Shown in pieces: positions 1 through 25,996 of a DNA stretch of 64,000 nucleotides; positions within the stretch are counted from its first letter, which is position 1, and each line of letters opens with the position of its first letter. The notes beneath the pieces were generated by a model that searched no databases, was not told the DNA's origin, and saw only the letters and a list, made by a program, of their open reading frames with translations. Source of the DNA: Spirochaetales bacterium (GTDB lineage: Bacteria; Spirochaetota; Spirochaetia; Sphaerochaetales; Sphaerochaetaceae); contig JAHDQJ010000005.1 in NCBI GenBank assembly GCA_018433865.1, forward strand, positions 45,134 through 109,133, given 5' to 3'. Position numbers and translations under genes: made by a program.

Positions 1-351
1 TATTTCGTGGCACGAAGGAAATCAGGTGGGCAGATCGGCGGACTTTGGGAGTTTCCCGGAGGCAAGCATCGTTGGGGAGAGACCCCCGAGCAATCCTTGG
101 CAAGGGAATTCATGGAAGAGTTCAACCTTCCCGTCACGGTGGGCAGCTGTTTCCTCCTGCATGATTTCGTACACAAGCAGACGCTCTTCCACTTGCGTGC
201 CTTTTGGGTGGAGCCGGTAGGTCCCGTACGCTATGAGCTGAACGAGCATGAGGAGGCCCGATGGGTAACCATGGAGGAGCTGCTCGAGCTCCCCCTGGTT
301 CCATCCGACATGGCCGTGCGTGACAAGCTGGAGGAACTCTCACTCGCCTGA
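1..351 (+). CDS. NUDIX hydrolase, 5' truncated by window edge
   Basis: C-terminal part of a NUDIX (MutT-type) pyrophosphohydrolase. The Nudix box is visible: GGK from the WEFPGGK segment, then GE, then REFMEEF (consensus GX5EX7REUXEEXGU, somewhat relaxed). These enzymes hydrolyse nucleoside diphosphates linked to another moiety, often damaged NTPs such as 8-oxo-dGTP. A GTG at 7 could serve as start, but the frame stays open to base 1 and the first residues (YFVARRK) look like the interior beta strand of a NUDIX fold, so the true start is most likely upstream of the window. About 116 residues are seen; complete MutT proteins are about 130. It converges on glgC with 19 bases between stops. Substrate cannot be assigned. 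Confidence 0.8.
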   Translation, partial: YFVARRKSGGQIGGLWEFPGGKHRWGETPEQSLAREFMEEFNLPVTVGSCFLLHDFVHKQTLFHLRAFWVEPVGPVRYELNEHEEARWVTMEELLELPLVPSDMAVRDKLEELSLA

Positions 352-370
352 GCAGTTCCCCAAGATGAAA

Positions 371-1666
371 TCAGAGGATCGATCCATGCGGTATGATCGC
401 ATTCTTGTGAATGACGATGATGCCATCGTGGATCGAGTAGTTGGCGTAATCTCCCTCTTCGCGGTGGATATCGTCGATACCGATCCTGCACCCGTCGCCG
501 ATCCGTGCATTCTGGTCGATGATCGCTCTCCGTATGATGGAAGCGCGACCGATTCCGATGTTCGGGATCTTCCGCCTGGCGTTCTCCGCCTTTTCCTCCG
601 GGGTCTCATAGTGGGAAGCTCCCATGCAGTAGACTCCATCGAGGCTGGCACCCGATTCGATCAGTGTCCGGACTCCGATGATCGAGTTAACGATGTAGGC
701 GTTCGTGATGATCGAACCTTCGCTTGTCAACGAGCAACTGATGTTGCAGAAATTGACTTTCGTCGCAGGCAAGTGTCTTCTGTGGGTGTAGATCGGCATC
801 TCCTCGTTATAGAAATTGAACGCCGGAGTGACCGATGCAAGGTCGATGTTCGTGTCATAGAATGCCTTGATCGTTCCGATATCCTCCCAGAATCCGTCGA
901 ACACATAAGTCGCCACTTTCTGCGTCTTGATCACTTCGGGGATGATCTCCTTTCCGAAGTCGGTCGAGGTGCTGCTCTCGAGCAATTCCTCCATCGCCCG
1001 TGCGTCGAAAATGTAGATGCCCATGGAGGCCAGGTATTCGTTGCTATCGTTCGGTTTCTGGTTGAGTGCATCTTTCAACAGCCTCGCGGGTACGCGATAT
1101 TCGGAGATATCGAGATCCGGAGCCGGTTTCTCATAGAATTTCTTGATGATTCCATGGTCATCGGCGCCGATGATGCCCAGTCCCGTGGCCTGTTCCCGTG
1201 AGATCGTCTTCGCTGCGATGGTCAACACCGCGCCGCTTTCGACGTGGGTCTTGAGCATCTCGCGATAATCCATCCGATACAGCTGGTCTCCCGAGAGTAT
1301 GATGTAGTAGTCGGCATTCTGGTCAGCGAAGTGCTTCAGGTTCTTTTTCACCGCGTCGGCCGTGCCTTGGTACCAATCGTTGTTGTGGAATGTCTGTTCC
1401 GCAGCGAGGATCTCGACGAATCCGTTTGAGAACGTGTCGAAGATGTAGGTGTTGGCAATATGGTTGTGCAACGATGCCGAGTTGAACTGGGTGAGGATGT
1501 AAATCTGCTTGACCTCACTGTTGATGCAGTTTGAAATCGGTATGTCAACCAAACGGTACTTGCCTGCGAATGGGACTGCCGGTTTCGATCTGTCCTTGGT
1601 CAAGGGATACAATCTTGTCCCTTTCCCTCCTCCCAATACGATTGCGATAGCTTTCTTCTTACCCAT
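371..1666 (-). CDS. glgC: glucose-1-phosphate adenylyltransferase
   Basis: Makes ADP-glucose from glucose-1-phosphate and ATP, the committed step of bacterial glycogen synthesis. The 431 residues match the usual length. The N-terminal nucleotidyltransferase signature GGGKGTRLYPLT (about residues 13-24), the KPAVPFAGKYRLVD segment and the ISNCINS stretch are all present; the C-terminal third has the left-handed beta-helix type hexapeptide pattern (RIGDGCRIG). Start is the ATG at 1666, preceded by AAGGGG at 8 bases. It lies 5 bases after glgA in the same direction, so the two form a glycogen operon. Confidence 0.95.
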   Translation of the reverse strand: MGKKKAIAIVLGGGKGTRLYPLTKDRSKPAVPFAGKYRLVDIPISNCINSEVKQIYILTQFNSASLHNHIANTYIFDTFSNGFVEILAAEQTFHNNDWYQGTADAVKKNLKHFADQNADYYIILSGDQLYRMDYREMLKTHVESGAVLTIAAKTISREQATGLGIIGADDHGIIKKFYEKPAPDLDISEYRVPARLLKDALNQKPNDSNEYLASMGIYIFDARAMEELLESSTSTDFGKEIIPEVIKTQKVATYVFDGFWEDIGTIKAFYDTNIDLASVTPAFNFYNEEMPIYTHRRHLPATKVNFCNISCSLTSEGSIITNAYIVNSIIGVRTLIESGASLDGVYCMGASHYETPEEKAENARRKIPNIGIGRASIIRRAIIDQNARIGDGCRIGIDDIHREEGDYANYSIHDGIIVIHKNAIIPHGSIL

Positions 1667-16391: not shown

Positions 16392-16586
16392 TCAATGCGT
16401 GAACAGCCAATACAATCCATACAGAACCAAGATCATGCCCAGGATGACCGGAGTGAAGACCAGGAATGCACTGATGAGCATGGCAAGGAAATCACCCTTT
16501 TCCAACCTTTCCTTCGGCTCCTGCGTATGTTTCCTTTCCACGTCCTCTACGTCCAGGACCCGTTTAATCTTGCGTGGGAACAGCAT
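16392..16586 (-). CDS. small single-span membrane protein at the end of the opp operon
   Basis: 64 residues: charged N-terminal half (RKHTQEPKERLEKGD), then a membrane helix at about 34-62 (MLISAFLVFTPVILGMILVLYGLYWLF). The start overlaps the 3' end of oppF by 23 bases, arguing for translational coupling and a role with the transporter. No family recognised. Alternative: unrelated tail-anchored protein. Confidence 0.65.
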   Translation of the reverse strand: MLFPRKIKRVLDVEDVERKHTQEPKERLEKGDFLAMLISAFLVFTPVILGMILVLYGLYWLFTH

Positions 16587-18150
16587 CCGGTACGTCCTTG
16601 CTTCTGGTCAGGGGATGATGGCAGGCAACGAAGTGCCCTGCTTCCAATTCACGCCACAGGGGTACGACATGGGTACATATCTCAGTCTTGTACCGGCAGC
16701 GCGTATGGAACTTGCACCCCTCGGGAGGCTTGATGGGAGACGGTATGTCTCCCTCGAGCAGAATCATCTTGCCCTGGTCGGTCCGATCCGTCGTGGGTAT
16801 GGCAGCGAGCAATGCTTCGGTGTAGGGATGGAGCGTATCGGTGAAAATCATCCGGGCCGGAGCAAGTTCGACGAAATTTCCCAGGTACATCACCCCGATG
16901 CGGTCGCTGATGTACTTGACCACTGCCAGGTCATGGGAGATGAACAGATAGGTCAGATTCGACTTTTCCTTCAGATCGCGCAACAGGTTGATGATCTGGG
17001 CCTGGATGGAAACATCGAGGGCGGAAACAGCTTCATCACATACGACAAACTGCGGTTTGAGGGCCAAGGAGCGGGCTATGCCGATTCTCTGGCGCTGGCC
17101 TCCTGAAAACTGGTGCGGATAGCGATGGATCATGTAGGGGGCCAAGCCGCACTCCTCCATCACGCCCATCACGTAAGCTTGCATCTCTTCCCCGTCCCGC
17201 TTGAAGAACCGGTGGGCCAGCAGTCCTTCCCCGATGATCTGCCCGACGGTCATTCGTGGATTCAGGGAAGAGTAGGGGTCTTGGAAGATCAGTTGCATGT
17301 CCTTGCGCAATACACGTATCTCGGAGAAGGTGAGACGCGAGAGGTCGATGCCGTTGTCCCGCAGCCGCTCGTGCGTCTCAAACTCCTCGTTGCCACTCCA
17401 TTCCTTGCGTGCGTCATCCAGCAGTCGGTTGGCCTTGGCAAGATCCTGTGCCACGCGTTCTTGCGTTGCCGAAATTCCCCGGATTTTTTCCTGCAACTGT
17501 GACAGGCGTCTCTCTTTGGTGCCCGTCGACCTGTTTCCCTTCTGTGCATGCCTGATGGATCGCTGCACCTCCTCCACCTCAAGCTGGAGAGCTGAGAGCA
17601 AGCCTTGCAGTCGGTGTTGCTCCGAGCTCTGTTGGAATGCATCGAGCAACAACGGAGTGATCTGGGAAGGATCTTCGACGATGATGAATCCGCCGATCAA
17701 CTGCACGATATCCAGATAGGCATTACGATAGCGTTTTTCCGCCTCCTGCGAAGCATTGAGCGCTTCATAGACGGCCTGAACCGATTGGCTGTCGTCCTCT
17801 TTCAACTGCTCATGCAACGCAGCACTGTCCTGATAATCTTTCTGCAGGTCTGCAAGGCGCTGTTTGTACTTCGAGAGATTGACCAGCGTTTCCTTCACAT
17901 AGGCGGGAGCCAACGATTCCAAGGATTGGCCGTAGTACAGGGTCTTGCCATCGGTCTGTCGATAGAGCTGGAGCAACACCCTGCCGAACGTGGATTTCCC
18001 ACATCCGCTCTCCCCGACCAATCCCAGCGTCTCGCCCCGGAAAATCTGTACATCGACACCATTGACCGCTTTTACTGTCAGCCCTTTGGTCTTCAACGGA
18101 AAGTGTTGTTTCAGGTTGCTGATCTTGAAGAGTATCTTATCATCGCTCAT
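16564..18150 (-). CDS. oppF: oligopeptide ABC transporter ATP-binding protein OppF with large coiled-coil insertion
   Basis: 528 residues from ATG 18150; ordinary OppF is about 320-330. Walker A GESGCGKST at 46-54; Q-loop at Q290 (IFQDPYSSLNPR); signature FSGGQRQR at 348-355; Walker B VVCDEAVSALD at 369-379; C-terminal oligopeptide-transporter domain with CKFHTRCRYKTEIC near 485. About 190 extra residues (about 81-270) separate Walker A from the Q-loop and are helical, charged and heptad-like (KYKQRLADLQKDY, LQLEVEEVQRSIRHA, RRLSQLQEKIRG). All catalytic motifs are intact, so the ATPase should work. The start was moved from 18246 since the upstream part overlaps oppD; the overlap is now 11 bases. 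Confidence 0.92.
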   Translation of the reverse strand: MSDDKILFKISNLKQHFPLKTKGLTVKAVNGVDVQIFRGETLGLVGESGCGKSTFGRVLLQLYRQTDGKTLYYGQSLESLAPAYVKETLVNLSKYKQRLADLQKDYQDSAALHEQLKEDDSQSVQAVYEALNASQEAEKRYRNAYLDIVQLIGGFIIVEDPSQITPLLLDAFQQSSEQHRLQGLLSALQLEVEEVQRSIRHAQKGNRSTGTKERRLSQLQEKIRGISATQERVAQDLAKANRLLDDARKEWSGNEEFETHERLRDNGIDLSRLTFSEIRVLRKDMQLIFQDPYSSLNPRMTVGQIIGEGLLAHRFFKRDGEEMQAYVMGVMEECGLAPYMIHRYPHQFSGGQRQRIGIARSLALKPQFVVCDEAVSALDVSIQAQIINLLRDLKEKSNLTYLFISHDLAVVKYISDRIGVMYLGNFVELAPARMIFTDTLHPYTEALLAAIPTTDRTDQGKMILLEGDIPSPIKPPEGCKFHTRCRYKTEICTHVVPLWRELEAGHFVACHHPLTRSKDVPDAVPTQD

Positions 18151-19129
18151 GACGTGCCGCCTTCTCCGGGTAAAAACAACGAATGGTATGATTCTCAGCA
18201 ATGTTCCTGAGCGTAGGATGTTCTTGCTGACACAAGGTGGTTGCATACTTGCAACGGGGAGCGAAGAAGCAACCCGTCGGCAAGTCCAGCGGATGGGGAA
18301 CCGTCCCCGATATCATCTCAAGTTTCGCGGTCGTTGCGGTGTCCAACCGGGGGATGGAGGCCATGAGACCTTCCGTGTAGGGATGCGCATGTGCCACCGA
18401 CGAGAAGATCGTTTCCACCGGAGCCAATTCCACCACCTCGCCGCTATACATGACCGCTACATCGTCAGCCATCTGGTTGATCACTCCCAGGTCATGGGTG
18501 ATGAACAATATGGCAGTCCCTTTCTCTTTCTGCAGATCTTTCATCAGTTTCAGGATCTGTGCTTGGATGGTGACATCCAATGCCGTGGTAGGTTCATCGG
18601 CGATCAACAGGTCCGGCTTGCATGCAAGTGCCATCGCGATCATCACCCGCTGGCGCATGCCACCGGAGAGTTGGTGGGGATATTGCCTGGCCACTTGTTC
18701 CGGATTGGGGATCTTGACATCCGTGAGCATCCTGATCGCCTCGCGGGCAGCCTCCTTCTTGTCCATGTCCTGATGGACCATGAAAGCTTCACCGATTTGT
18801 TTCTCAATGGTGAAGACGGGATTGAGGCTGGTCATCGGCTCCTGGAAAATCACTGAGATCGCATTGCCCCGTATATGGTACATCTGTTTTTCGGAAAGTG
18901 TGGTCAACTCCGTTCCCTTGAAGATTATGCTGCCCTCGGAAATATAGCCGTTCCCATCGAGCAACTTCAGGATTGACATCGCAGACACCGACTTGCCACA
19001 ACCGCTTTCTCCTACGACACCGAGGGTCTTTCCCTCTTCCACTGTGTAGGAAACACCATTGACGGCCTTCACGGTTCCCCGTTTCGTAGTGAAATATGTA
19101 TGGAGATTGTTCACTTCAAGTAAAGCCAC
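18140..19129 (-). CDS. oppD: oligopeptide ABC transporter ATP-binding protein OppD
   Basis: 329 residues, normal length. Walker A GESGCGKS near 38, Q-loop FQEPMTSLNP, signature LSGGMRQR, Walker B LLIADEPTTALD, and the C-terminal family motif CFFAPRCKYATTLC. Pairs with OppF to energise the OppB/OppC channel. Unlike OppF it has no insertion. 12 bases after oppC. Confidence 0.95.
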   Translation of the reverse strand: MALLEVNNLHTYFTTKRGTVKAVNGVSYTVEEGKTLGVVGESGCGKSVSAMSILKLLDGNGYISEGSIIFKGTELTTLSEKQMYHIRGNAISVIFQEPMTSLNPVFTIEKQIGEAFMVHQDMDKKEAAREAIRMLTDVKIPNPEQVARQYPHQLSGGMRQRVMIAMALACKPDLLIADEPTTALDVTIQAQILKLMKDLQKEKGTAILFITHDLGVINQMADDVAVMYSGEVVELAPVETIFSSVAHAHPYTEGLMASIPRLDTATTAKLEMISGTVPHPLDLPTGCFFAPRCKYATTLCQQEHPTLRNIAENHTIRCFYPEKAARHER

Positions 19130-19141
19130 GCGTTTATTCTC

Positions 19142-20938
19142 CTATCGATCATTCGATTTCGGGTCGATGGCCTCTCGCATCCCGTCCCCGACCATGTTGA
19201 TGCTGACGGTGCACAAGCTGAGTGCCACCGAGGGGAAGACCCAGCGCCACCAATACTGTGCCATGACCGTTGAGTCGTTGCACCCATAGAGCATGTTGCC
19301 CCATGTGGCGTTCGGTTCGTTCACGCCGAATCCAAGGTAGCTCAAGCTGGATTCATAGAGCATGCAGAGCGCGAAACTGAGGGTGAGATTCACCAGGATG
19401 ACCGTGATGACATTGGGGAGGATGTGTCTGAAGATGATCTTCATCTCGGTGATTCCCATCGCCTTCGCTGCCGTCACGAACTCCTGCTCCCGCGCTGCCA
19501 ATACCTGGCCACGTACCAACCGGGCCAAGGATGGCCAGGAAAGGAGACCGAGAATGACCATGATCATCGAAATCCGTCCAGTTTCGGAAATCTTGCTCCC
19601 GATGATCGCCGACAGAATCATCGCCAACGGCAAGAAGGGGATGGCATTGACCACCTCGGCAAACCGCATGAGCAGCATGTCGGTCTTTCCCCCGTAGTAT
19701 CCGGAAAGCGAGCCGATCATGATGCCGATGAACCCGCTGATGATGACTGCGATCGCTCCGATGGTCAGCGTCACCCTGCCTCCGCTGAGCAGGCGGGTGA
19801 AGAGATCCCTTCCGTATTGATCGGTTCCCATCAGGTATCCGCGCAACCCCCAGGTGTGGATTCTCCCATCCTTGTCGATGGCGTAGTTCTGGAAATATGA
19901 GGAGCTGATGGAAACGATGTCCTTCAGGCGCGGGCTTTCGGCCTGCTTGTAATTGTTCCGTCCCCAGGAAACCACGGTTCCGTCTTCCAGCAGCACGGTA
20001 AAGTGGCCTCGGCCTGCGCTGATCTGTACCGCATGCCCCTGAATGGCCTGCGGAATGTCTTGCACTCCATAATCATCTCCTCCCCACACAAGCACATGAC
20101 CGTCTCGTGTCACCGCTCCGGCCGATCTTTCGGTGAGGGCAATGTCGACGGTCCTGAACTGTATTTCCTGTGGGATGTAGGAAAAGGAGGTCTCCTTCGA
20201 ACTCAAGACAACCACTTCGCCGCCGCGGGTGACCGCCATGCCAAGTGTCGTGTTCGCCACAAGCTTCGAGAAAGTCCCTTGGTACTCCGAAGGTACCGGA
20301 ATGGTGATGAGATTGGTGTTGCCCCAAACATGGATGAACCCCTGTTCGGTGAGGGCAAGCGATATCTGATGCCCTGCGAGTACTTGTGCAACCCGCTGTG
20401 AATTCAGTTCAGCGGGAATGGCATTGAGCATGAAGCGATCGTTCCCCCAGGTATGGATGCGACCGTACTCATCAACGGCCAATGCATGATCGAGTCCTGC
20501 GGATACCTGGACGATCTTGCCGGTTCCTTTCGGAGTTTGCAAAAGCTTGGGAGAGAGCGTTCCCCACTGATGGATCGTTCCCGAACTGTCGACACCCAGA
20601 CCGAACACCGACCCGCCATCCAAGTCGACCACATGTCCTTGCAGCTGGTTGGGAACGCGCATGAATGACCGTGATGGTTTGGTATTCTTTTGTGTTGGGT
20701 CCTGGAATTGGATGTCCATCGGAAAGAAAATCGGAAGAATGAAAACCAACAGCAGGATCACCAGAAAGACATACAACCCGAGCATGGAGCTCCATCTTTC
20801 CCTGAAATTTCTCAACACGGTACGATAGGGACTTTGCACTTGCTCCTCTTCCAAGAGCGAGAGCGTTGCGTTTCTGCGGCCGAGAAAGAAGGTCTTCAAC
20901 ACATCGGAAAAGGTGGAACCATATGTTCTTTTTGTCAT
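19142..20938 (-). CDS. oppC: oligopeptide ABC transporter permease OppC with inserted RCC1-type beta-propeller
   Basis: 598 residues; normal OppC is about 290-310. Residues 1-50 are the cytosolic N-terminus, 53-73 the first membrane helix (LGLYVFLVILLLVFILPIFF), and 369 onward is a standard DppC/OppC permease: MGTDQYGRDLF, then five membrane helices and the EAA loop EFVTAAKAMGITEMKIIFRHILPN. Between them, about 95-368, lie seven repeats of 39-42 residues each with an RCC1 signature ending in x-W-G or its remnant (HQWG 123-126, HTWG 162-165, HVWG 203-206, degenerate near 244, LVWG 283-286, VSWG 323-326, HTWG 361-364). Topology puts this seven-blade propeller outside the cytoplasmic membrane. 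Frame and permease motifs are continuous, so this is a genuine insertion rather than an assembly join. Confidence 0.93.
   Translation of the reverse strand: MTKRTYGSTFSDVLKTFFLGRRNATLSLLEEEQVQSPYRTVLRNFRERWSSMLGLYVFLVILLLVFILPIFFPMDIQFQDPTQKNTKPSRSFMRVPNQLQGHVVDLDGGSVFGLGVDSSGTIHQWGTLSPKLLQTPKGTGKIVQVSAGLDHALAVDEYGRIHTWGNDRFMLNAIPAELNSQRVAQVLAGHQISLALTEQGFIHVWGNTNLITIPVPSEYQGTFSKLVANTTLGMAVTRGGEVVVLSSKETSFSYIPQEIQFRTVDIALTERSAGAVTRDGHVLVWGGDDYGVQDIPQAIQGHAVQISAGRGHFTVLLEDGTVVSWGRNNYKQAESPRLKDIVSISSSYFQNYAIDKDGRIHTWGLRGYLMGTDQYGRDLFTRLLSGGRVTLTIGAIAVIISGFIGIMIGSLSGYYGGKTDMLLMRFAEVVNAIPFLPLAMILSAIIGSKISETGRISMIMVILGLLSWPSLARLVRGQVLAAREQEFVTAAKAMGITEMKIIFRHILPNVITVILVNLTLSFALCMLYESSLSYLGFGVNEPNATWGNMLYGCNDSTVMAQYWWRWVFPSVALSLCTVSINMVGDGMREAIDPKSNDR
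19829..20656 (-). other. RCC1-like seven-blade propeller domain inside oppC
   Basis: Encodes OppC residues about 95-370. Each blade follows a pattern like VSAGLDHALAVDEYGRIHTWG: a small-residue turn, H or T, a hydrophobic strand, D/E-x-G, strand, WG. Seven units close a full propeller. Confidence 0.85.
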
Positions 20939-20947
20939 AGCTTCCTC

Positions 20948-21931
20948 CTATTCCAATCGCACGCGCGGGTCGGCCAAACCGTAGGAGAGATCCATCACGA
21001 GATTGCCGATGAGACTGAGTACCAGATAGAACATGACCATTGCCAGCGAGACCGCAAAGTCCTGCTGGTTCAGTGCATCTATGATGACCTTTCCCATTCC
21101 GTTCCACAGGAAGGTCCGTTCGATGACCACAGAACCACTGAAAATGCTGATGAACCAACCCGTCATGATGGTGATGAAGGGTATGAGGGCATTGCGGAAC
21201 GCATGCGAATAGATGACCACCTTCTCACTCAAGCCCTTGGCGCGGGCTGTACGGATGTAATCCATCCTCAGTGCCTCTATCATGGTTGCCCGCACATACC
21301 GGGTCAGACCTCCCAAGGAGGTGAACACCATCACGATCAAAGGGAGCGCCATATGATACAGTTTGTCAAGGAACATGCGGAGCGGAGTTCCCCGCAATGC
21401 CGGGGTTTGCACCCCGCTGATGGGAAAGATCGGGATTTTCACCGCAAGAAGGAAGATGAAGAGCAGGGCGATGACAAAGAAGGGAAGGCTGTAGCCGATG
21501 ATGGTGATGATCTGCACACTGCGGTCGAACCGGGTTCCCCTCCGTACCGCAGAGGCAATGCCCAGCGGGAGGGTGATGGCGAACACGGGAATCAGCGACC
21601 ACACATTCAGCATGATGGTGTTCTTCATCGGTTCTCCGATCATCTCCTTCACCGGCATCTTGTACGTCAGGGAGTACCCGAAGTCCAATCGCAATGTATT
21701 GAACAACCACGTGAAATATTGGACGAACACCGGTTTGTCCAGACCGAGCTTGCGGACAGCATCCTGATAGCGTGCCTCATATTCAGCCGGTTTCATGCTT
21801 GCCTTGTTGCCCTCCAACATCATGCGGGCCGGGTCTCCGGGAACCGATTTGTAGAGTGCGAAGAGCAACACTGAGGCGATGAGAAAGACAATGACGATGT
21901 AGGCAAGACGCTTGAATACATACTTGAGCAT
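20948..21931 (-). CDS. oppB: oligopeptide ABC transporter permease OppB
   Basis: 327 residues from ATG 21931. First membrane helix at about 9-28 (RLAYIVIVFLIASVLLFALY), the PGDPARMMLEGNK segment and the EAA loop MDYIRTARAKGLSEKVVIYSHAFRNALIP are family hallmarks. Normal length, no insertion. The open frame upstream to 22057 runs through the oppA-oppB intergenic hairpin and is not coding. 9 bases before oppC. Confidence 0.95.
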   Translation of the reverse strand: MLKYVFKRLAYIVIVFLIASVLLFALYKSVPGDPARMMLEGNKASMKPAEYEARYQDAVRKLGLDKPVFVQYFTWLFNTLRLDFGYSLTYKMPVKEMIGEPMKNTIMLNVWSLIPVFAITLPLGIASAVRRGTRFDRSVQIITIIGYSLPFFVIALLFIFLLAVKIPIFPISGVQTPALRGTPLRMFLDKLYHMALPLIVMVFTSLGGLTRYVRATMIEALRMDYIRTARAKGLSEKVVIYSHAFRNALIPFITIMTGWFISIFSGSVVIERTFLWNGMGKVIIDALNQQDFAVSLAMVMFYLVLSLIGNLVMDLSYGLADPRVRLE

Positions 21932-22014: not shown

Positions 22015-23844
22015 TTACTTGATGCTGGCACGGACGATGGCATACCGGAAGTCCCAAGTCGAGGAGGATTCATATCCGACAATCCGAGGATTGTAGAAGT
22101 CGTGATACATATCCGAATAGAGAGGGATGTCCGGAAGAAGATGGTTCCAACGCTTCTGGAATTGGATCCACTTCTCCACCCAGCCGGTGAGGTCCTGCGG
22201 ATCGGTCTTCTTCATGTCGAGGGTGATTGCCTCGAGCTGTTTGTCAGCAATGAAGTTGGTGTTGTAGGTGCCGAAGTATTCGGGGTCTGTGCTGTAGTAG
22301 TACCAATAGGCCTGCGTCGTATTGAAGCCGGTACCCAGATTGAACATGCCATACACAGGCTTTTCGATGTTTTCCTTGTAGAGGTTGTCGAGCAACACGG
22401 AGAAATCGACGGTGGTGCCGTTGATCTGCATGCCGATCTTGCGGACTTCCGGGACGAGCATCGTGGAGATCAGATCGGAAACGGGGTTGTTGGCGGTGTT
22501 CGCCCATTCGATGACCAGCGGCATCAAGGTGCCGTCAACCATCTTGTGACGGATCGCATCGACTCCCTTCTGGAACGGCTTGCCATCCTTGTTGAGCGTC
22601 CAGCCGTCATTGACCAACTCTTCCTCAGCTTTTTGCAGGTTGTACGGATAGGCGTTCAGGTCCTTGTCCAGTCGGGCCTTGTTCTGGGAATATTCCCACA
22701 TCGAAGCACCGTAGTACCCGTTGACGATGATGCCATACCCGCCGGTGTACTGCCTGGCAAATTCATTGCGGTCCAAGCTATAGGCGATCGCGCGTCGCAC
22801 CGCGTCGAATTGGGTGGGCCCGAAGTCGCATGCGAAGGCTATCTTTCCATACCCATAACGGGGATAGGAAGAATAGTTGACCAGTTTCTGGTCGTAAAGG
22901 TCCAGACCACGACTGATCTGGTCGCCACCGCTGATGCCCTGTAGCATATCGATGGCCCCGGTCTTCAGTTCATCCATCTGGGTGGCGGTATTGGTCAGCT
23001 TGATGATGAGTCGATGGATCGAACCCTTGGCTCCATCATAATCACCAAGATACCTCGGGTTGAGCACTACACTTGCGGTGCTGTCGGCCGGATTGTAATT
23101 CTCAAACTGGTACGCACCCGAAGTGACGAGCGGCTTGTACCGGTAGCCGGTACCTGCGGTCAAGACCGTCTGGCGCAGCAAATCGGCAGTGAAGGTATCA
23201 GTCAGGTATGCGCCCTTGCCTGCATCGACCACGTCGACTCCGGGGGCGATCACGTGCAACGGGTAAGGAGCGACGGAGACGAGGGAGAGATCGAAGAAAT
23301 AGGGCAGCTCCTCCGCCTTGATCGTGATGGAGAAACTCAGGTCACCGAGCAACCTGATTCCGGCAAACTCAGCACTTTCTCCGCTATGGAACTTCTCATA
23401 CCCCACATATTCCGGGCCGACGCCATACTGAGCTCCGATCTCCAGGGCCTCAGGGGATGCCGCATACAGGATGGCAAAGACATAGTCCTTCGCAGTGATT
23501 TTCGTCCCATCGTTGTAGGTCAGATTGTTGGCCAATGCAAACGTATAGGTTTTCGATCCGTCAGCATTGTCAACAGCAGTGTAGGAAGGAACGGAAATCG
23601 GGTTGACGATGTAACGTCCTTCCTTGGTCCAGACCACCGTCTCGTAGCCTGTCATCAACTCTTTCAGATAGGCATTGGTGGCGCTATTGGTCCAACCATC
23701 GAAAAAATCAGCATTGACCTGGGTCGAGGAACCCAGGATCACCTGTGTTTCCACACGTGGTGCAGCTTCTGCAGCGCCTCTAGCGAAGGCCGATGCAGAG
23801 ACAACAGCCACGATGAGAAGCAGAACGAACAGTTTCCTTTTCAT
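22015..23844 (-). CDS. oppA: oligopeptide-binding periplasmic protein OppA
   Basis: 609 residues from ATG 23844 (AAGGAG at 9). Signal peptide KRKLFVLLLIVAVVSASAFA with an AxA cleavage site near residue 21; no lipobox cysteine. SBP_bac_5 fold: YTFALANNLTYNDGTKITAKDYVFA in the N-lobe and the RRAIAYSLDRNEFAR segment. Delivers peptides to OppBCDF. Slightly longer than E. coli OppA (543), mostly in loops. First gene of the operon, with promoter 23895-23923. Confidence 0.93.
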   Translation of the reverse strand: MKRKLFVLLLIVAVVSASAFARGAAEAAPRVETQVILGSSTQVNADFFDGWTNSATNAYLKELMTGYETVVWTKEGRYIVNPISVPSYTAVDNADGSKTYTFALANNLTYNDGTKITAKDYVFAILYAASPEALEIGAQYGVGPEYVGYEKFHSGESAEFAGIRLLGDLSFSITIKAEELPYFFDLSLVSVAPYPLHVIAPGVDVVDAGKGAYLTDTFTADLLRQTVLTAGTGYRYKPLVTSGAYQFENYNPADSTASVVLNPRYLGDYDGAKGSIHRLIIKLTNTATQMDELKTGAIDMLQGISGGDQISRGLDLYDQKLVNYSSYPRYGYGKIAFACDFGPTQFDAVRRAIAYSLDRNEFARQYTGGYGIIVNGYYGASMWEYSQNKARLDKDLNAYPYNLQKAEEELVNDGWTLNKDGKPFQKGVDAIRHKMVDGTLMPLVIEWANTANNPVSDLISTMLVPEVRKIGMQINGTTVDFSVLLDNLYKENIEKPVYGMFNLGTGFNTTQAYWYYYSTDPEYFGTYNTNFIADKQLEAITLDMKKTDPQDLTGWVEKWIQFQKRWNHLLPDIPLYSDMYHDFYNPRIVGYESSSTWDFRYAIVRASIK

Positions 23845-23894
23845 GTGCAGGATCTCCTTTTTACAGTATATTACATGGCCAGCATGTTTCATTG

Positions 23895-24195: not shown

Positions 24196-24224
24196 TTGCC
24201 AATCCTTGCCTATTGTTGAATACT
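24196..24224 (+). promoter_or_regulatory. pncA promoter, probably leaderless
   Basis: TTGCCA (24196-24201), 17-base spacer, AATACT (24219-24224). +1 would be 24231, the A of the pncA ATG. No SD sequence precedes the gene. Confidence 0.5.
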
Positions 24225-24230
24225 GTGGTC

Positions 24231-24746
24231 ATGAAAAAGACCCTGATCATAGTCGATGTCCAGCATGATTTCCTCGAGGGCGGTGCATTGGCCGTCCCCG
24301 GAGCCGACAAGGAGTATGTGAAAGCGGTGGAGCGCATCCGTCCGTTGTTCGACCAGGTGATCCTCACCGCCGATTGGCACCCCGCTGACCATGTATCGTT
24401 CTCAGTGTTTCCTCCTCATTGTGTGGCGGGGACCCACGGAGCCCAGCTGGCAGTCGCTTCCGGCGACCTGACCTTGCTCAAGGGTCAAGCGAAGGATAGT
24501 GAGGAGTTCAGTGCGTTCGGCAGTGGGAAGCATGTGCAATCCATCGAGGGGGATGACGTGTACGTCATCGGACTTGCCGGCGATTATTGTGTGAAGCAGA
24601 CATTGTTCGACCTGCTCGAATTCGCTCCACAGAAGAGGCTGTTCGCTATCAAGGACCTCATCCGGTCCGTGGACGGCACCGCGTACGGACCGGTCGACCA
24701 CTTCTTTGGGAAAGTCCCCTTCGTTACGTCCTCCGAACTTTCCTGA
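24231..24746 (+). CDS. pncA: nicotinamidase
   Basis: 171 residues, isochorismatase-like fold. Catalytic D9 in IIVDVQHDF, metal-binding D48-W-H50, catalytic C120 in GLAGDYCVKQT, with K84 in the expected position between. Deamidates nicotinamide to nicotinate for NAD salvage; PncB at 53115 uses the product. A TTG at 24213 would extend by six residues but ATG 24231 begins at the family N-terminus and coincides with the predicted +1. Somewhat shorter than E. coli PncA (213). Confidence 0.9.
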   Translation: MKKTLIIVDVQHDFLEGGALAVPGADKEYVKAVERIRPLFDQVILTADWHPADHVSFSVFPPHCVAGTHGAQLAVASGDLTLLKGQAKDSEEFSAFGSGKHVQSIEGDDVYVIGLAGDYCVKQTLFDLLEFAPQKRLFAIKDLIRSVDGTAYGPVDHFFGKVPFVTSSELS

Positions 24747-24749
24747 CCC

Positions 24750-25907
24750 TCATGCGCCCGGTGCAAGGAACCTGAGCGCACTGCGCACCAGCAACTCTGT
24801 CCCGACGGGGAGCATCTTCTCGTCGATGGTGAACTTGGGGTGGTGGTGCGGGTAGACAGAGCCTGCATCAGGGTTGTTGACCCCGAGGAACGCGAAGGCC
24901 CCCGGGGCGAAACGCAGGTATTCGCTGAAATCCTCTCCGGCCATGGTCCTGATGTGCCGGCTTACCGTTCCCTCCCTTCCCAGGACAATCGCCGCCTCAT
25001 CACGCATCATCGACGCCATGCGCGGATCGTTCGAGAGCAGGCTGTTTCCCAGGATGATCGAGAGCTTGCATTCGGTACGGTAGGCGGCGCAGACATGCTC
25101 TGCGGTTCTCCTGAATGCCTCCAGGATATGTTCCCCGCCTTCATAGAGGAATCGGATCGTACCCCGGAGCGTGGCGCTCTCCGGTATGATGTTCTGGCTG
25201 CTTCCCGCCACCACCTGGGTGAACATGATCACTGCGGGGTCCTGTGCATTCAATTCCCTGGTCTGTATGGATTGGACCGCCTGGATCACTGCTGAGGCCG
25301 CGACGATCGGATCGATCGCCTTGTGTGCGAATCCCGCGTGCCCGCCAGCACCGATGATCTCAAGGGAAAAGTCGTAGGCTCCCGCCATTTGGGGACCGTC
25401 GATGATGTCTATGGTTCCCGAAGGCAACGCGGACCAGAGATGCAAGCCGAACACCCCGTCGACATGAGGATCGGCCATCACTCCCTGTTCGATCAGTATG
25501 CTTGCGCCCGCATTCTCCTCATTGGGCTGGAACACGAACTTCATGTTCCCCGAAAACTGCTCCTTCCGGGAAACAAGGATCTTCGCGGCGATTAGCAGCA
25601 TGGCCATGTGTCCGTCATGGCCACAGGCGTGCATGAGCCCTTCGTTGCATGATGCGTAGGGGAGTCCGGTCCGTTCGGTTACCGGCAGGCCGTCCATGTC
25701 GGCACGGAGCATGACCGTCCTGCCGCCCTCGCACCCTCTCAGGGTCGCCACGACACCGGTCCCTCCTATCGGTCTGGGATCAAGCCCGAGTTCCCCGAGA
25801 TACTCCATGACAATACTTTGGGTCCTGAACTCGGCAAAACCCAACTCGGGATAGCGATGGAATTCGCGTCTCAGCCGGATCAGTTCCTCGTGATGCGTCG
25901 TGACCAT
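24750..25907 (-). CDS. M20 family amidohydrolase (N-acyl-amino-acid / hippurate hydrolase type)
   Basis: 385 residues from ATG 25907. Two-domain M20D metallopeptidase: HACGHDGHMAMLL carries the Cys and His metal ligands, QPNEENAGASILIEQGVM follows, the GGHAGFAHKAIDP lid region and the C-terminal MAGEDFSEYL are present. Members remove acyl groups from N-acyl amino acids or act on amidated metabolites; the exact substrate is open. Converges with pncA, 3 bases apart. The frame open to 25976 lacks an SD; AAGGGAG lies 9 bases before 25907. Confidence 0.9.
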   Translation of the reverse strand: MVTTHHEELIRLRREFHRYPELGFAEFRTQSIVMEYLGELGLDPRPIGGTGVVATLRGCEGGRTVMLRADMDGLPVTERTGLPYASCNEGLMHACGHDGHMAMLLIAAKILVSRKEQFSGNMKFVFQPNEENAGASILIEQGVMADPHVDGVFGLHLWSALPSGTIDIIDGPQMAGAYDFSLEIIGAGGHAGFAHKAIDPIVAASAVIQAVQSIQTRELNAQDPAVIMFTQVVAGSSQNIIPESATLRGTIRFLYEGGEHILEAFRRTAEHVCAAYRTECKLSIILGNSLLSNDPRMASMMRDEAAIVLGREGTVSRHIRTMAGEDFSEYLRFAPGAFAFLGVNNPDAGSVYPHHHPKFTIDEKMLPVGTELLVRSALRFLAPGA

Positions 25908-25996
25908 GTGTGTGTGCTCCCTTGTTTCGATTCCTGCCTTCAAACCATGTCGATGGTATGATACACTGCAGAGCATACCATGAGAAGGAGCAACCG

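Follow-up and report, generated by a model that had tools for sequence, protein, structure and literature searches.

In a 64,000-nucleotide stretch of a Spirochaetales bacterium genome (positions 45,134 to 109,133 of contig JAHDQJ010000005.1; hereafter the window), the oppC gene (19142..20938, minus strand; 598 aa) encodes an importer permease whose predicted first external loop is filled by an RCC1-repeat domain with the predicted fold of a seven-bladed, BLIP-II-type propeller. By its domains and by its operon, which also encodes a SBP_bac_5 peptide-binding protein, OppB, OppD and OppF, the gene belongs to the Opp/Dpp type; the importer is of a known kind, and the propeller-bearing permease is a new variant of it. 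We propose that this BLIP-II-like propeller may well serve as a rigid docking platform for the operon's own binding protein. Structures are only beginning to reveal the ways in which peptide importers select and retain their binding proteins. If the proposal is true, gut Clostridia and spirochaetes would hold such a protein in a new way, by a propeller fixed next to the channel, and a BLIP-II-type binding fold would be at work inside a membrane machine.

The open reading frame (ORF) lies exactly where the initial annotation had placed it, and the structure model and hidden Markov model search that it had named as able to overturn the claim both find the propeller. In Pfam searches OppC_N covers residues 36-88 (35.1 bits; cut-off 23.9) and BPD_transp_1 covers residues 405-594 (110 bits, E 1.5e-31; cut-off 26.4), while RCC1-type repeats match residues 109-365, RCC1_2 with 82 bits (E 2e-23; cut-off 22) and RCC1 with 31 bits (E 3.8e-7; cut-off 21.7). 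The model for the whole RCC1-like domain, WD40_RLD, reached E 1e-27 but its 97.9 bits fall under the curated cut-off of 150, and against the NCBIfam Opp4C equivalog the window OppC scored 300 bits, under the curated cut-off of 350. The AlphaFold2 (AF2) model has seven three-stranded blades (residues 103-126, 142-165, 183-206, 223-245, 263-286, 303-326 and 341-364), with blade-end residues at 125, 164, 205, 245, 285, 325 and 363. The seven repeats first described are therefore real, although they measure 38-41 residues rather than 39-42, and their W-G strand ends hold generally but not for blade 4, which ends L-S. Since the E-values are accompanied by conserved homologues, chance is excluded as an explanation for the repeats.

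Small shifts were also needed at the borders of the insert. The first transmembrane helix (TM1), previously assigned to residues 53-73, spans residues 49-71 in the AF2 model (20726..20794) and overlaps the OppC_N match, and the MGTDQYGRDLF motif begins at M370 instead of at about 369. Between them, likewise on the minus strand, lie an entry linker (residues 72-96; 20651..20725) with conserved D80, T82, Q83, N85, P88 and P96, the propeller itself (residues 97-364; 19847..20650), and an exit linker with the GTDxxGRD motif (residues 365-378; 19805..19846), followed by the post-TM1 helices of the permease core (residues 379-598; 19145..19804). Both permease halves are intact, as had been reported, according to Pfam, AF2 and a fold match of the window OppC to 8z21_B (aligned 34..593). 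The topology of the permease family would place the propeller outside the membrane. The window copy of the propeller contains no Cys.

The architecture recurs widely. A homologue search scored 7996 candidates and returned 3776 proteins at E <= 0.001; at least 120 homologues were examined for domains, and among the matches listed 120 of 120 carry both PF00528 and RCC1 models, at 52-100% identity. A scan of genome contigs gave 352 pattern matches, with 262 stretches encoding a relative, and all locus counts given here refer to the best 80 of these 262 (L017-L096). Going by record titles, the 80 loci come from Sphaerochaeta, other Spirochaetales, Treponema, Lachnospiraceae, Oscillospiraceae and other Clostridia, and include the named strains Coprococcus comes MSK.16.63, Hungatella effluvii DSM 24995 and Gemmiger formicilis An723. 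The five genes for the binding protein, OppB, OppC, OppD and OppF are all present in 73 loci, in identical order and strand in 73/73, with gaps of at most 666 bases and an end gene cut by the contig in three; six of the remaining seven are cut at contig ends (the seventh, L031, is taken up below). The distribution is nonetheless patchy, every genome count taking in the central genome itself: searches with a single sequence at 1e-20 matched 7 of 61 genomes in the window organism's own family (one match partial, at a contig end) and 2 of 296 across its phylum, while a 31-row profile at 1e-30 matched 21 of 197 genomes in a Gemmiger's family and 6 of 200 in a Hungatella's. Propeller matches in plasmid (20) and phage (2) records were all below 60% identity, with none annotated as a permease among the 10 plasmid rows and both phage rows that were listed.

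A permease-half query in 12 propeller-bearing genomes returned 43 OppC-like matches, of which 12 are of the propeller type (51-100% identity to the query permease; E <= 1.3e-79) and 31 are others with at most 48% identity (E >= 2.9e-63), three of them carrying a helical insert. In a tree of permease halves (30 propeller-type rows, the window's and Hungatella's each entered twice, versus 18 others with loci), the propeller types form one clade with support 100/99. This clade, together with the gap in identity, indicates on sequence grounds that the propeller type has one origin and has been kept since. Spirochaete rows fall at three places among Bacillota rows (the join of L091 and L062 is not starred), a scatter which suggests that propeller-OppC has moved between phyla, in a direction that we infer. 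Pairwise comparisons indicate that the propeller is under purifying selection: omega was 0.045-0.20 in 11 of 13 pairs where computable, with a synonymous divergence (dS) close to saturation (at least 2) for three of the 11.

The one sequence that could favor an assembly artefact or a recent neutral insertion is P0216, a plain OppC (304 aa) with a permease half that matches a propeller-type one at 98% identity across 230 residues. P0216 is either a natural swap or a chimeric contig, and the 1537-base contig on which it sits leaves room for the latter. Because the propeller type appears on many independent contigs and in named strains, and because it is under purifying selection, we regard an artefact or neutral insertion as refuted, with next to no probability left to it; the homologues likewise dispel the worry over assembly raised in the initial annotation.

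We then considered how the propeller is mounted, using a 150-row alignment built from the 80 loci, the query and 69 database proteins (partly overlapping; effective number 67 at 80% identity). Over residues 72-100 there is not one indel in 149 rows (one is cut by its contig), and over residues 339-380 not one in all 150, so that both linkers are of constant length. Insertions within the propeller sit between blades, except in two rows, where one follows residue 103; an insertion after residue 101 is seen in six rows. D80, N85, P88, G364, G367 and Y368 are conserved at 97-100%. Given linkers of this kind, the propeller is probably mounted rigidly and not on a flexible string.

Conservation is also uneven across the propeller. 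Counted as blade-specific were residues that depart from the repeat consensus and are still conserved at 78% or more. The A-B loops have 6 of these among 21 positions and the B-C loops none among 28, while the B, A and C strands have 8 of 42, 2 of 42 and 1 of 35, respectively. A-B loops versus all the rest gave a Fisher p of 0.009, at a 78% limit chosen after seeing the data and with D150 sitting on that limit. Non-Gly A-B loop positions also vary less than B-C ones (Mann-Whitney p 8e-4). The conserved A-B loop residues, D150, Q191, N229, D270, R310 and Y348, are polar. The exit strand finishes on the side of the A-B loops and reaches the GTD motif within seven residues; because it leads straight into a membrane helix from that side, the conserved A-B face probably looks back at the transporter.

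The initial annotation had offered docking of the binding protein, binding of a peptide or glycan, and attachment to peptidoglycan as possible functions. Docking best fits the anatomy, given the rigid linkers, the one conserved face and a position opposite the OppB scoop, and to this extent the earlier suggestion gains partial support, the facing of the propeller being topological and predicted only. In E. coli DppABCDF, the scoop of DppB, which lies in the pseudo-symmetric TM1-TM2 region, grips DppA, and DppB and DppC are similar in overall fold but differ in the TM1-TM2 region (PMC12136057). As the folds are alike and the difference lies there, the TM1-TM2 region of DppC would be the counterpart of the DppB scoop. 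The region after TM1 (PGDP...), the site of the scoop, is present in the window OppB. We therefore envisage a propeller that would keep the binding protein of its own operon above the channel of OppB and OppC, its conserved A-B face meeting that protein opposite the OppB scoop. The contact might steady a docked or an open state, in the way that MalE is held by MalF-P2, an inserted external domain that contacts this binding protein (PMC3150292, PMC8134467).

Several observations weigh against docking. The facing of the A-B loops is a topological argument, B strands are also rich in blade-specific conserved residues, and part of the A-B loop conservation is RCC1 structural consensus. Co-divergence of the propeller with the binding protein was tried as evidence and rejected as non-discriminating: the partial distance correlation was 0.32 with the binding protein, 0.36 with the OppF core, 0.22 with the permease half, 0.14 with OppB and 0.03 with OppD, and since the cytoplasmic OppF core scores no lower, the binding protein is not singled out. 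Peptide import as such needs no propeller, because 31 of the 43 OppC-like matches in the same genomes lack one. Adjacency of the binding-protein gene is expected with or without contact to the propeller, and L031 encodes propeller-OppC, OppB, OppD and OppF with no binding protein found in 13.8 kb.

A correlation with the ATPase core as strong as that with the binding protein, like the rigid linkers, would also suit a propeller that stabilizes or regulates the permease in cis, for example by locking OppB and OppC in one state, with no outside partner. We consider this quite improbable, as OppCs with related permease halves in the same genomes manage without such a brace. The polar character of the conserved A-B loops raises another alternative, that the propeller itself binds peptides or glycans, either to capture them first or to anchor the importer to peptidoglycan, and on visual inspection further RCC1 proteins of this genome seem to be secreted. 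Fixed linkers and a side that would face the transporter suit a distant ligand poorly, however, and a binding protein is already part of the operon in 73 of the 74 loci not cut by contig ends, which leaves ligand binding unlikely.

Somewhat unlikely, too, is that the propeller binds another surface protein, such as a cell-surface peptidase or a cell-wall enzyme, as BLIP-II binds beta-lactamases, so placing the importer where peptides are released. The only recurrent neighbors identified are M3 oligopeptidases, a cytoplasmic family, which speaks against this reading, although a surface partner may yet lie among the other recurrent neighbor clusters. The M3 ORFs flank 37 of 80 loci (e.g. L074 832-2634 and L028 325-2109; two were checked by Pfam) but 0 of 11 spirochaete loci, and those with a taxon are from Bacillota. 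These flanks fit an oligopeptide cargo, and although as a sign of peptide import they are only suggestive, the cargo of the importer is likely to be oligopeptides.

In the type I cluster C importers E. coli OppBCDF and DppABCDF and M. tuberculosis OppABCD, OppC/DppC has 287-302 aa and a short TM1-TM2 loop, whereas here a propeller of ~270 residues fills that loop. BLIP-II of Streptomyces exfoliatus is a free, secreted beta-lactamase inhibitor, in contrast to a propeller built into a membrane permease, and it has aromatics, presumably its beta-lactamase contacts, at the same A-B loops where the window propeller has other residues. MalF-P2 is immunoglobulin-like and sits in the TM3-TM4 loop. Our case differs from it in fold, loop and importer family, and contact with the binding protein is here only proposed. 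What the two share is a folded extra domain inserted into one of the permease's external loops, which in MalFGK2E touches the binding protein (PMC3150292). The initial annotation knew of no described ABC importer with this architecture, and the open-licence literature agrees: searches aimed at a propeller-bearing importer found no description of one there, PMC5359404, PMC13068155, PMC2394750 and PMC12997753 dealing with other subjects in the portions available. A broader and more tentative idea, possible though rather doubtful, is that different lineages have used OppC's first external loop as a socket for different folded domains, which would grip the binding protein or recruit other surface proteins; the BLIP-II propeller would then make an ordinary peptide importer into a complex for harvesting at the surface, equipped with a protein-binding receptor of its own.

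The other operon genes of the window all lie on the minus strand. The gene for the binding protein (22015..23892; SBP_bac_5, Pfam E 4.7e-43) encodes a protein whose closest solved structure is OppA 9p48 (E 1.6e-25); an extra docking domain was sought in three binding proteins scanned with Pfam, which found SBP_bac_5 alone. oppB occupies 20948..21931, with an ORF extending to 22057 and an NCBIfam match from residue 43. The ATPase genes are oppD (18140..19129; ORF, Pfam and NCBIfam) and oppF (16564..18246; ORF and Pfam), the latter with an extra segment of ~180 aa. This segment (ORF residues ~109-290; ~17377-17922) precedes the Q-loop and is L/Q/E/A-rich, with 5% G+P, and coiled-coil-like. OppF is long (at least 400 aa) in 34 of the 73 complete operons and short in 39, and a long OppF was therefore rejected as a partner feature of the propeller. 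Upstream of the binding-protein gene are an isochorismatase-family gene (24213-24746, plus strand) and an M20 peptidase gene (24750-25976, minus strand).

A second OppC of the same genome (L013 1432-3039, 535 aa) carries a large insert in the same TM1-TM2 loop. In comparison to the propeller, this insert is of ~230 aa and mostly helical in the AF2 model, and its permease is of another lineage. Pfam found no RCC1 match in the insert, and in the fold comparison the rows shown are ABC permeases matching the permease part, leaving the fold of the insert unaddressed. Nearly all of at least 120 listed relatives of this second OppC are similar in length; where a source is named, it is mostly a spirochaete. 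L114 and L116 each hold an OppC-type ORF (397 and 391 aa, respectively, from stop to stop) in which the stretch before the GTD motif is unlike the usual short loop. The same genome also encodes two RCC1-repeat proteins, at L011 6755-8653 (632 aa) and L012 3664-6456 (930 aa), neither of them permease-like and both seemingly secreted.
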